A stretch of 37,179 nucleotides of DNA from assembly GCA_003563895.1 (NCBI GenBank), contig PWTK01000094.1, positions 1 through 37,179 of the forward strand, read 5' to 3'. The position numbers and the translations under genes were made by a program. This stretch comes from Syntrophomonadaceae bacterium (GTDB taxonomy: Bacteria; Bacillota; Dethiobacteria; DTU022; UBA8154). This document shows, piece after piece, positions 385-3,926 of the stretch (position 1 is its first letter; every line of letters begins with the position of its first letter). The notes beneath the pieces were generated by a model, which was not told the DNA's origin, did no database searches, and was given only the letters and a program-made list of their open reading frames with translations.

Positions 385-864
385 TCATCCCCCGGGCCCA
401 TTCAACCGCCTTTTTTCCAATTCTTCCACCAGGATGCCGACGGCGGCAGTGACGTACTGGCGGCATTTTTCACGCCCTTTTTTGTCAATCATATATCGTT
501 TGAGCTGCGCAGGGTCTTGAAGGTCGTATTCGATCAGTTCGCGGCATTGAATGGAACCGTGGACTTTTGCAAAGCGCTTTACCATTTCTGAAACGGTTGC
601 CTGTAATCGATTGTAAAGCTCTTTCTGCTCCGGGGAAGTTCTTCCTGCGCAAAGTCCCGCTGCCATTACTGAGCCCGAGATGGCACCGCAAACATGGCCG
701 AGCCTGCCGATGCCCCCTCCAAAGCCGCTGGCTGTGCTGGTAGGTGTGTTTCCCCCCAACTCCAGCACTTCTTTTGCAGCTTGAAATGTTGATTCGGCAC
801 AGTTAAAGCCCTGTCTGAAATAATCGTCGGCAATTTTTTGGGCCTGCTCTTTCTTCTGATACAA
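385..864 (-). CDS. C_GCAxxG_C_C family protein (probable redox protein)
   Basis: This protein of about 159 residues belongs to the C_GCAxxG_C_C family, named for its spaced cysteines. They are visible in order: FNCAES near the N-terminus, a glycine-rich GFGGGIGRLGHVCGA segment that carries the signature, then IQCREL and REKCRQY towards the C-terminus. The family is common in anaerobes and is thought to act in electron transfer or metal/redox chemistry, but its reaction is not established. An ATG lies at 882, but the ribosome site (GGGGAGG) falls inside that extension. A TTG at 864 sits nine bases after it and is the better start. The gene is divergent from the selenoprotein pair that begins at 1204. 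The family call is firm; any function is inference. Confidence 0.85.
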   Translation of the reverse strand: MYQKKEQAQKIADDYFRQGFNCAESTFQAAKEVLELGGNTPTSTASGFGGGIGRLGHVCGAISGSVMAAGLCAGRTSPEQKELYNRLQATVSEMVKRFAKVHGSIQCRELIEYDLQDPAQLKRYMIDKKGREKCRQYVTAAVGILVEELEKRRLNGPGG

Positions 865-1059
865 ACCGCTCACCCTCCCCATTTTTTGTTTCGGCAGTGA
901 GGTTACCCACCCTTACAGTTCAATTCTACAACCAGACTGGGTTTGCTCAGGATGGCAATGAAAGAAGCCCCGCAAAAAAGAGGTTTTAAAAGGACACACT
1001 TACAAAAAGGCCTTGATCTGCTAAAAAGCTGTATTTGGGGGGCCACTCAACAAGAATTC

Positions 1060-1203: not shown

Positions 1204-1821
1204 ATGAGCTGCGGAGAAGAAGTACAGCACGCAAGAGTGGGCAGGAAAGCGCCGGAATTTGAAACCAATGCCTTTGTGGACGGAGCTTTTAAAAAGGTTA
1301 AGCTCTCCGATTACCAAGGCCAGTGGCTTGTACTCTGCTTTTACCCGGGAGATTTTACCTTTGTTTGACCAACCGAGCTGGCGTCAGTTGCCGCCAGGTA
1401 CAGCGAGTTAAAGGAGTTAGGGGTAGAAGTCCTCTCCTGCAGTGTAGACAGCCAGTTTACACACAAAATCTGGCAGGAGCAGGAGCTGTCCAAAATGGTT
1501 TCCGGGGGTGTGCCCTTTCCCATGCTCTCCGATACCGGAGGCCGCATCGGCAGACTTTATGGTGTTTACGATGAAGAGGGAGGCGTAAACATCCGTGGCA
1601 GATTTTTGATCGATCCCGATGGAGTTATCCAGGCCATGGAAGTTCTGACCCCTCCGGTAGGGCGCAATTTCGAGGAGTTGGTGCGCCAGGTCAAGGCCTT
1701 CCAGCATGTACGGAAAACGGGGGAACCTACACCTGCCGGCTGGCAGCCGGGCAAAAAAACCCTCAAACCAGGCCCCGATTTGGTGGGCAAGGTTTGGGAG
1801 GTTTGGAAAATCGGGGAATAA
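1204..1821 (+). CDS. prxU: Selenocysteine-containing peroxiredoxin (AhpC/Prx family), UGA recoded at codon 55
   Basis: The ATG at 1204 follows a GGGGAGGA ribosome site. The frame runs to a TAA at 1819-1821 with one internal stop, TGA at 1366-1368. Reading it as selenocysteine gives 205 residues and restores the peroxidatic motif as PGDFTFVUPTE, where ordinary family members have Cys. Everything after the TGA is a normal peroxiredoxin: [33 protein letters not shown] and [10 protein letters not shown]. The enzyme would reduce peroxides in the cytoplasm. The usual C-terminal resolving Cys (V-C-P in AhpC) is absent; the matching place reads [11 protein letters not shown]. The other cysteines are C3, C45 and C79. 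Peroxiredoxin selenoproteins are known in anaerobic bacteria. A nonsense mutation is the alternative, but it would have to hit exactly the catalytic codon and leave no other damage. Confidence 0.93.
1378..1397 (+). promoter_or_regulatory. Candidate bacterial SECIS hairpin of the peroxiredoxin
   Basis: CTGGCG (1378-1383) pairs perfectly with CGCCAG (1392-1397) around an eight-base loop, TCAGTTGC. The stem starts nine bases after the UGA. A loop G (1387) lies 21 bases from the U of the UGA, in the range usual for bacterial SECIS elements. It lies within the coding sequence, as these elements do. Confidence 0.7.
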
Positions 1822-1827
1822 CTCAGG

Positions 1828-1869
1828 TTTTTTGGGGCAGGGGTCATGAAGATTCCCTGCCCCAAAAAA
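1828..1869. repeat. Perfect 15-bp inverted repeat between the two selenoprotein genes
   Basis: TTTTTTGGGGCAGGG (1828-1842) and its exact complement (1855-1869) flank a 12-base loop, six bases after the peroxiredoxin stop. A normal terminator has A residues before the stem and U residues after it. Here the order is reversed on both strands, so this is a strong RNA hairpin without a U-tract. It could be a processing site, an mRNA stabiliser or a partial transcription block before the ArsC-like gene. Confidence 0.8.
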
Positions 1870-1891
1870 CTATATATCGGGAGGGCGGCAG

Positions 1892-2236
1892 ATGTTACAA
1901 TTTTATTGTGTAACTACGTGAAGCACCTGCCAGAAAGCGAAAGCGTGGCTTTCGGAAAAGAATGTGGAATACGAATACCGGAACATTTTAAAAGAACCCC
2001 CTTCATTCGAAGAGTTGCAAAAGCTCGCTTCGATGGGAGGGATGGAGGTCGTTCACCTGTTAAACCCCAAAAGCAAAGGGTTTAAAGATAAAGGGCTGAA
2101 GCTGGAGAATATTTCGTCCACGGAAGCGGGCGAAATTATTTCTGAAAACCCCCGGATCATGTGCCGGCCTTTGCTCACCGATGGGGAGAAGCTGGTGGTC
2201 GATTTTAAACCCGAGGAAATGGAAAAGCTTCTTTAG
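1892..2236 (+). CDS. Selenocysteine-containing ArsC/Spx-like thioredoxin-fold protein, UGA recoded at codon 10
   Basis: An ATG at 1892 follows a GGGAGGG site and opens a frame that meets TGA at 1919-1921 and then runs uninterrupted to TAG at 2236, giving 114 residues, normal for small ArsC/Spx/YffB proteins. With the TGA as selenocysteine the N-terminus reads LQFYCVTTUSTCQKAKAWL. The UGA therefore replaces the first Cys of the family's C-S-T-C active site, leaving a U-x-x-C pair (U10, C13). The later blocks NILKEPPS, ISENPRIMCRPLL and VDFKPEEM are typical of the family. It is probably a cytoplasmic thiol/selenol oxidoreductase; true arsenate reductase activity is not implied, since the CxxC type includes Spx-like proteins. 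It lies 70 bases after the selenoprotein peroxiredoxin and could recycle it. An ATG-first caller would start at 1964 and lose the active site. Confidence 0.9.
1938..1954 (+). promoter_or_regulatory. Candidate bacterial SECIS hairpin of the ArsC-like gene
   Basis: CGAAAGC (1938-1944) pairs perfectly with GCTTTCG (1948-1954) around the triloop GTG. The apical G (1945) is 26 bases from the U of the UGA at 1919, within the usual range. An alternative fold with a larger loop uses 1930-1938 paired with 1948-1955 and one bulged A. Confidence 0.7.
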
Positions 2237-2274: not shown

Positions 2275-3015
2275 ATGAGGGTATGGGATGTACATCCCGG
2301 ATATCTTTCTCGCAGCAGCTTGCTGGGGCAACATGCGGAAATACATGCCTTGATGAGCATCTTGAGCGGACACAAAAAAGGGTACCGCGCGCACCCGGAA
2401 ACCCTGCGCTGGAAAGGGTACCTGGAAAAACTCAAATGGAGGCATGAGCTGACCGTTAAAGAGATGGGGCTGCGCGGGTTTGGTCATAACAGCCCTTGTG
2501 CCGACAACTTGGCCTGCTGCGGCATATCGGAAGGCATGAGCCATATAGACCCTCCCACCCAACAGTTTCATATACTTCGGCAGAAGTACCTGGAACGCTC
2601 TGTATCGGGGAGGATTCCCCTCCCCGGGCGAGGCACTGATTTTTGGGCACACCACACGTATTCGGTGATGGCACGCGGTGATAATTATTATGAAGAGATC
2701 CAGGCTTTCTCGGCTCAGAAAAAGGATCTGCCCATCGGCCAGGAAAAAGAGCTGGTGGAGCGCGTGCAGGAAATTATGGAAAAACCGGCCACAAAAGAGG
2801 CCCTCTTCCATGTTGTACAGCACTTGTGGGGCTATTTTAAGGACGAAGTTTCTCCTTCAGAAAAAAGGCGTTACTTTTTCTGGTTAGAGGGGCGAGAGAA
2901 AGAGCCCACTTCTTTGCTGCCTTTTTTTTACCGCATGGCAGCAAAGTACCAAAAAGCTTATCTCTTGCATTCTACCGTATTTGCGGATTTTGTTGAGGGT
3001 GCATTGTTATCATGA
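2275..3015 (+). CDS. Pyrimidine dimer DNA glycosylase-like / DUF1722-like protein
   Basis: The protein has about 246 residues. The N-terminal third (MRVWDVHPGYLSR, LLGQHAEIHAL, KKGYRAHPETLRWKG, RGFGHNSP) resembles the family annotated as pyrimidine dimer DNA glycosylase, related to T4 endonuclease V. The C-terminal part (LFHVVQHLWGYFKDEVS, YFFWLEG, LLPFFYRMAAKY) resembles DUF1722/YbgA. Both halves occur in proteins linked to DNA repair or stress, but no reaction is shown here. An in-frame GTG-like extension begins at 2257, but ATG 2275 fits the family start and follows a G-rich site. It starts 38 bases after the ArsC-like selenoprotein and its stop overlaps the next gene's ATG, so these genes are probably cotranscribed. 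The two family assignments are from memory of motifs, moderately sure. Confidence 0.65.
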   Translation: MRVWDVHPGYLSRSSLLGQHAEIHALMSILSGHKKGYRAHPETLRWKGYLEKLKWRHELTVKEMGLRGFGHNSPCADNLACCGISEGMSHIDPPTQQFHILRQKYLERSVSGRIPLPGRGTDFWAHHTYSVMARGDNYYEEIQAFSAQKKDLPIGQEKELVERVQEIMEKPATKEALFHVVQHLWGYFKDEVSPSEKRRYFFWLEGREKEPTSLLPFFYRMAAKYQKAYLLHSTVFADFVEGALLS

Positions 3016-3926
3016 TCAGACTGCTGAGAAACCGCACCTTTATCCTGGTATTGGCTTTTGTGTTGGGCCTGATTTTTAGCGATGCGGCCACCCTGGCCGG
3101 GGGGCTGACCATGCCCGCCCTGGCCGTGGTTTTGACCGTTTCTTCCGGCCAGGTTTCGGTAAAAGATTTTCTGCCCCTGCGCAAAATGCTGCCCCCGGTT
3201 TTATGGGCTTTGTCACTGAATTACCTGCTGCTGGGGGCGCTTATTCTAGGGTTGGCCTGGTGGCTGATGCCCACCTGGGACCTGTGGGTAGGGTACGTGC
3301 TGGTCGCAGCGGCACCGCCTGGCGTGGCCATAATCCCGTTTACGTATATCCTCGGCGGTGACGTAAAGCTCTCCCTGTTGGGCACGTTTGGCGTGTACCT
3401 TCTCTCTTTGTTGCTGACACCGGCGCTGGTATATTTTTTTACGGGAGATGCAGCTGTTTCTCCCTTTCGCCTTTTAAATACTATGCTCATGCTCATTTTG
3501 ATCCCTTTCGTGCTCTCGCAGGTGATCAATTTCAGCCAAAATGCATCCAACATCATTGCCAGGTGGAGGGGGACCATTGTAAATTGGGGGTTTTTCCTGG
3601 TTATTTTCACAGTGGTCGGCCTTAACCAGGAAGTTTTTTTAACCCAGCCGCACGTGCTGCTTCCGGTATCGATGGTGGCCGTTGCAAGTTCTTTTGTGCT
3701 TGCTTTGTTCATAGAAATGCTGGGCAAAAAGCTCAGCATTGAGGAGGCGCAGCGTAACAGCTTTATGCTGCTTTCCACCATCAAAACCTCTGCTTTCGCA
3801 GCAGCCGTGGGCCTCAGTCTTTATAATGAAGCGACTTCGGTCCCGGGGGCGGTTATAAGCGCCTGGTATGCACTCTACTTTATTTACCTGGGGATAAAAG
3901 GCGACCGAAGCACAAAAACAAGCTGA
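3012..3926 (+). CDS. Bile acid:sodium symporter family (BASS-like) permease
   Basis: This 304-residue membrane protein has about nine or ten hydrophobic segments from residue 8 to 298 and the small-residue-rich AAAPPGVAIIPFTYILGGD block seen in sodium-dependent BASS/SBF-type carriers. Such proteins move organic anions or related solutes with Na+; the substrate is unknown here. Its ATG overlaps the stop of the upstream glycosylase-like gene (ATGA), which points to translational coupling. The next gene, sufC, follows after 19 bases, so one transcript could run from the selenoprotein genes into the suf genes. The gene has the same base composition as its neighbours and appears intact. Related auxin-efflux or arsenite-type carriers have a similar fold, so the family call is moderately sure. 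Confidence 0.75.
   Translation: MIRLLRNRTFILVLAFVLGLIFSDAATLAGGLTMPALAVVLTVSSGQVSVKDFLPLRKMLPPVLWALSLNYLLLGALILGLAWWLMPTWDLWVGYVLVAAAPPGVAIIPFTYILGGDVKLSLLGTFGVYLLSLLLTPALVYFFTGDAAVSPFRLLNTMLMLILIPFVLSQVINFSQNASNIIARWRGTIVNWGFFLVIFTVVGLNQEVFLTQPHVLLPVSMVAVASSFVLALFIEMLGKKLSIEEAQRNSFMLLSTIKTSAFAAAVGLSLYNEATSVPGAVISAWYALYFIYLGIKGDRSTKTS

Follow-up and report, generated by a model that had tools for sequence, protein, structure and literature searches.

The window, meaning the whole stretch of DNA analysed (37,179 nucleotides), comes from a Syntrophomonadaceae bacterium. It carries a short gene, referred to below as the ArsC/Spx-U gene, directly downstream of a gene for a selenocysteine peroxiredoxin (PrxU). 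The features of the locus are as follows.

1204 to 1821, plus strand: prxU, the directly upstream gene, encoding a selenocysteine peroxiredoxin (TGA at 1366-1368; NF040737 369 bits, cut-off 270)
1826 to 1871, plus strand: very stable hairpin in the gap separating the two genes (-33.6 kcal/mol, z -5.8)
1879 to 1885, plus strand: Shine-Dalgarno-like GGGAGGG, read from the sequence, with the ATG 6 nt downstream
1892 to 2236, plus strand: ArsC/Spx-U gene, predicted to encode an ArsC/Spx-fold selenoprotein with a CxxxUxxC active site (114 aa, then TAG)
1907 to 1909, plus strand: Cys6 codon, aligned with ArsC His8 and invariant in the clade
1919 to 1921, plus strand: in-frame TGA, codon 10, predicted selenocysteine
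1928 to 1930, plus strand: codon for Cys13, the putative resolving thiol of the U-x-x-C motif
1938 to 1954, plus strand: SECIS-like hairpin, CGAAAGC-GTG-GCTTTCG, identified by synonymous constraint, a hairpin survey and pair counts

The frame translates as MLQFYCVTT-U-STCQKAKAWL..., with 114 sense codons ahead of the TAG stop and one TGA, which takes the place of the first Cys in CxxC. A preliminary description made from the sequence alone had claimed a 114-codon frame with a good ribosome site, a lone TGA at the first Cys of the motif, and a perfect 7-bp hairpin at the right distance; all of these are borne out. It had also proposed looking for homologues with Cys or UGA at codon 10. Searches of the order, the class, the phylum and the GTDB contigs yielded about 55 distinct relatives in which exactly this codon is TGA, and the recoded UGA is retained by more than 50 relatives from anaerobic Bacillota. 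All matches better than 1e-24 in the Bacillota sample had TGA, and the weaker ones were nearly all Cys proteins. The only member inside the Sec clade with Cys10 (TGC) was found in the class search and lies in a SelB-positive genome (L122, G088:C17:37037-37378, minus strand). It has lost the hairpin (best stem, 3 bp), its SECIS codons have decayed, and it is an apparent Sec-to-Cys reversion. L038 was considered as a homologue without TGA and rejected as such, as its codon 10 is TGA and a frameshift comes after it; additional damage is present in L039 and L061. The plasmid search returned only matches below 60% identity, and those among the matches listed were either annotated as arsenate reductase family proteins or unannotated.

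The residues preceding codon 10 are also conserved. F4, Y5 and C6 are conserved at the protein level with variable third positions; within the Sec set, F4 is encoded by TTT or TTC in 36/36 sequences and C6 by TGT or TGC in 35/36. Translation therefore starts upstream and crosses the UGA, and no homologue has its start past codon 10. A tree of 123 proteins over 119 columns placed the window gene in a clade that is well supported and almost entirely Sec. The true Spx proteins, which carry Cys, branch among Sec lineages with moderate support. The Sec label requires five changes on this tree, at least four of them forced by well-supported branches, and the deep branching is not secure because the alignment has 119 columns. 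A separate Sec case, L108:1261-1602, belongs to a cousin Cys family (Oscillospiraceae-type ArsC-related proteins) and has its own 7-bp hairpin with a GGC loop.

Translated with Cys at the TGA, the protein matched the Pfam ArsC domain (2e-14), and TIGR01617 (Spx/MgsR) was the only NCBIfam model passed, at 80.4 bits against a cut-off of 75.05. Among solved sequences, Spx and an ArsC-related protein are the closest. The AlphaFold2 model (pLDDT 93.5) predicts a thioredoxin-type fold that has a strand at 2-6 and a helix at 11-22, with the redox motif where helix 1 begins; its best structure matches are Spx and ArsC-related proteins (TM 0.86-0.89), with glutaredoxins as weaker matches. Seven residues (C6, U10, T12, C13, L20, N58 and R92) are invariant in the 48-member alignment A2. 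Cys6, also found in 51/51 sequences, aligns opposite ArsC His8 and completes a CxxxUxxC arrangement that appears suited to selenol-thiol exchange. The model agrees with the sequence, the comparative genomics and the selenocysteine machinery described below in supporting the original proposal of an ArsC/Spx-fold protein with a U-x-x-C active site.

The family scores could be taken to mean that the protein is a selenium-based Spx-type transcription regulator, in which a U10-C13 redox switch would control binding to the alpha-CTD of RNA polymerase. Besides the TIGR01617 score and the nearest solved folds, which are Spx, such a regulator would be consistent with the retained R92 and with the partly kept basic residues at Spx positions 60 (K/R in 37/51) and 62 (K/R in 27/51). 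However, the residue reported as absolutely required for the alpha-CTD interaction of Spx, G52 (PMC2801614), is Gly in 7/7 Spx-group members, whereas it is E in the window protein and T, E, S, D and others in the Sec clade, Gly not being among the residues listed. The C-terminal tail of Spx is also missing (114-120 aa, compared with 126-132 aa in 5/6 Spx-group members). The linkage to a peroxidase gene also speaks against a regulator, and such a role is thus unlikely. Less probable again is an ArsC-type arsenate reductase that uses selenocysteine. The ArsC Pfam domain is present and UxxS ArsC selenoproteins are known, but the protein scores only 42.4 bits with TIGR00014 (ArsC arsenate reductase; cut-off 106.05), it has Cys in place of ArsC His8, and the window holds no arsenic genes adjoining the ArsC/Spx-U gene. 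Of the ArsC arginine triad R60/R94/R107 (PMC3169414), R94 alone is kept (as R92), with N58 at R60 and a third place that lacks a conserved Arg, in a comparison with E. coli ArsC. The preliminary description had favoured a redoxin role over arsenate reduction. This preference is supported by the unconserved triad, the absence of G52 and the linkage to prxU, and the sequence data point to a redoxin rather than either an arsenate reductase or an Spx regulator.

The machinery for selenocysteine insertion was identified in the host genome, whose assembly comprises 1.82 Mb in 114 contigs. It encodes a tRNA-Sec with a UCA anticodon and SelB, and the gene adjoining selB is presumably selA, assigned by recognising its sequence. 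SelD gave no match above the cut-off in this assembly, which is 79.6% complete; SelD is carried by 19/23 genomes of the family, with an in-frame TGA in every case among the matches listed. SelB is present in 62/71 genomes of the order. Outside the order, it was found in 21 of the 22 checked genomes with a TGA homologue (the exception being 75% complete) and in 5 of the 13 with Cys homologues only. TGA is the stop of other clear genes in the window and is therefore not reassigned wholesale. This codon usage, the presence of tRNA-Sec and SelB, and a hairpin of the bacterial SECIS type make it very improbable that a different tRNA inserts Cys or Trp at the UGA.

The stem of that hairpin begins 16 nt after the TGA, and its GUG loop begins after 23 nt. 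The published bacterial SECIS model has G followed by G or U at 16-37 nt from the UGA (PMC13188914), and both the GUG loop and the GGC loop seen in some relatives conform to it. Folded as a single sequence, the hairpin is unremarkable (z about -0.1 to -0.8); a 40-nt fragment containing it gave -8.9 kcal/mol, with an alternative 6-bp register as its minimum-energy fold, and Rfam gave no match in the window at gathering scores. Synonymous choice in the Sec set is frozen only over codons 16-21, and these are the codons that form a hairpin of 6-8 bp. Across 36 Sec sequences, the normalised codon entropy was 0.30, 0.58, 0.09, 0.07 and 0.57 at codons 16, 17, 18, 20 and 21 (codon 19 is Trp), whereas almost everywhere else it was roughly 0.6-1.0. 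The 58 Cys homologues, which encode the same residues, gave 0.72-0.91 at codons 16, 17, 18 and 20. Protein constraint or codon bias was rejected as the cause of the frozen codons, since KAKAWL is also encoded in Cys homologues and its codons vary freely there.

Conservation of the hairpin had been proposed as a check on the initial reading. Stems of at least 6 bp were found in 50/55 Sec sequences versus 8/72 Cys sequences. A chance hairpin in the KAKAWL codons was considered; the excess is seen at the level of the set, and isolated cases, L060 and L137 for example, carry little weight because 8/72 Cys sequences also have such a stem. Compensatory pair changes were observed from C-G to G-C in two cases and from G-C to A-U in five. 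The seven cells with both sides of a pair changed were matched in 0/500 shuffles, and there were fewer with the partner slid. Three close relatives (L133-L135) keep just 4 bp, and the hairpin is displaced by 1-3 nt in the divergent members L060, L108, L126 and L137, with a GGC loop in the last three. On this comparative evidence, the hairpin is far more than chance. That the TGA is an ordinary stop, a sequencing error or part of a pseudogene, with a shorter protein beginning downstream, would fit the insignificant single-sequence folding but is effectively refuted by the comparative data: the TGA recurs at the same codon with conserved residues on both sides, the synonymous constraint is confined to the hairpin, and the Sec machinery is present. 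The product of the ArsC/Spx-U gene is almost certainly a selenoprotein.

The window is one of 17 distinct loci at which the prxU and ArsC/Spx-U genes are paired, and in most of these the gap between them is 14-23 nt. PrxU has TGA at codon 55 in all 17 loci, one of which (L053) is annotated to another family, Desulfitobacteriaceae. In the class, PrxU occurs in 45/98 genomes, always with TGA. More than half of the clade's loci have the ArsC/Spx-U gene away from prxU, so PrxU cannot be the sole client. The hairpin between the two genes in the window (TTTTTTGGGGCAGGG...CCCTGCCCCAAAAAA) is possibly an attenuator or a processing site; a hairpin of different sequence occupies the same gap in L017 (z -4.6). 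Elsewhere, FUR and desulfoferrodoxin genes lie upstream of the ArsC/Spx-U gene in L030 and a FUR gene in L027. An EVE-domain gene is directly downstream in five loci, tested by profile in two (L030:1895-2305 and L048:4372-4794) and assigned by sequence likeness in L052, L121 and L123. Genes resembling AmmeMemoRadiSam in sequence are found near the ArsC/Spx-U gene in the Syntrophomonas-like group. In the window, the downstream region (2275-3926, plus strand) contains a pyrimidine-dimer-glycosylase/DUF1722 gene and an SBF-family transporter gene, and these also follow the ArsC/Spx-U gene in L045/L119. Divergent beside prxU at 385-882 (minus strand) is a gene for a C_GCAxxG_C_C protein, whose family is annotated "(seleno)protein"; this copy has no in-frame TGA inside it.

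In our view, the product of the gene is probably an ArsC/Spx-fold redoxin that contains selenocysteine, and we give this reading, including the mechanism proposed here and the link to PrxU, a probability of about 0.72. The UGA at codon 10 would be decoded by SelB and tRNA-Sec through the downstream hairpin, for which the comparative evidence is strong. The selenol of U10 would most likely attack an oxidised substrate, and the resulting selenenyl-sulfide would be resolved by Cys13, possibly with the invariant Cys6. A thiol/selenol oxidoreductase role fits these residues and is likely. The gene context, with PrxU here and FUR and desulfoferrodoxin elsewhere, makes selenol-thiol exchange in oxidative defence the most likely role, presumably as thiol-disulfide exchange in the peroxide or oxygen defence of anaerobes. 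The best candidate client suggested by the operon-like linkage is the adjoining, probably cotranscribed PrxU selenoperoxidase, which the redoxin may reduce or supply with relayed electrons. PrxU would be a favoured, nonexclusive partner; that it is the main one is possible, at a little short of even odds. More tentatively, PrxU and the CxxxUxxC redoxin could form a two-selenoprotein relay for peroxide reduction in anaerobes, in which the redoxin, recruited from or sister to the Spx regulator lineage, would serve as the dedicated electron donor.

Several known systems resemble the window protein. One of the domain classes involved, cd03032, is presumably the Spx subfamily. Under this class, the 2008 GOS survey of marine metagenomes listed "Arsenate reductase 2," a UxxC type with 42 Sec sequences (PMC2398784). 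An "arsenate reductase-like" UxxC selenoprotein appears in a later review (PMC9312934), and a 2026 review assigns the UxxC ArsC-like selenoprotein to NF041106 (PMC13188914). These share with the window protein an ArsC/Spx-type domain and Sec as the first residue of UxxC. However, the window protein scores 20.7 bits with NF041106 (cut-off 85), and the GOS set could be compared by description only. The best clade member reached E 4e-11 with NF041106, or an estimated 45 bits or so, and no match above the cut-off was obtained in 398 Bacillota genomes. With UxxC ArsC-like proteins listed in the survey and the reviews, the kind is known; this clade falls below the NF041106 cut-off. The preliminary description had held a selenol-thiol pair in this fold to be much less familiar than Sec peroxiredoxins, which is partly right, but the UxxC kind had already been listed in 2008. 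In the literature searched, we did not find this clade, its extra Cys or its linkage to PrxU.

The window protein also resembles Spx/MgsR (TIGR01617; Bacillus subtilis Spx) in its fold, the position of the CxxC motif, R92 and a score above the family cut-off. It differs in having Sec10 for Cys10 and the extra invariant Cys6, and in lacking G52 and the C-terminal tail. YffB and other ArsC-related thiol reductases likewise have a short ArsC fold without the full arginine triad, and a thiol reductase role has been proposed for YffB (PMC3169414); in contrast to the CxxxUxxC of the window protein, Brucella YffB has a single Cys. The Uxx-star/glutaredoxin-like selenoproteins (NF041212) are UxxC-type redoxins similar to glutaredoxin. 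Those are short glutaredoxins, whereas the window protein has a full-length ArsC/Spx fold and scores 29.5 bits (cut-off 66).

These results have consequences for annotation. The sole NCBIfam model passed names an RNA polymerase-binding regulator, and standard gene calling would cut the gene at the UGA. Behind the gene-regulator label that the clade protein receives in databases there is probably a functional redox enzyme. The clade also offers a clear natural test of how SECIS elements evolve: the hairpin comes in two types, it was lost in the one reversion to Cys, and Sec occurs separately once in a cousin family. Judged from sequence comparison, its product is a real, small, selenium-containing redox protein of Spx-like shape. 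The ArsC/Spx fold thereby gains a clade that is widely conserved, consists almost purely of Sec proteins, carries one more invariant Cys and is repeatedly linked to a selenoperoxidase. This would give a selenoprotein type so far known mainly from metagenome entries a concrete partner and function to test.
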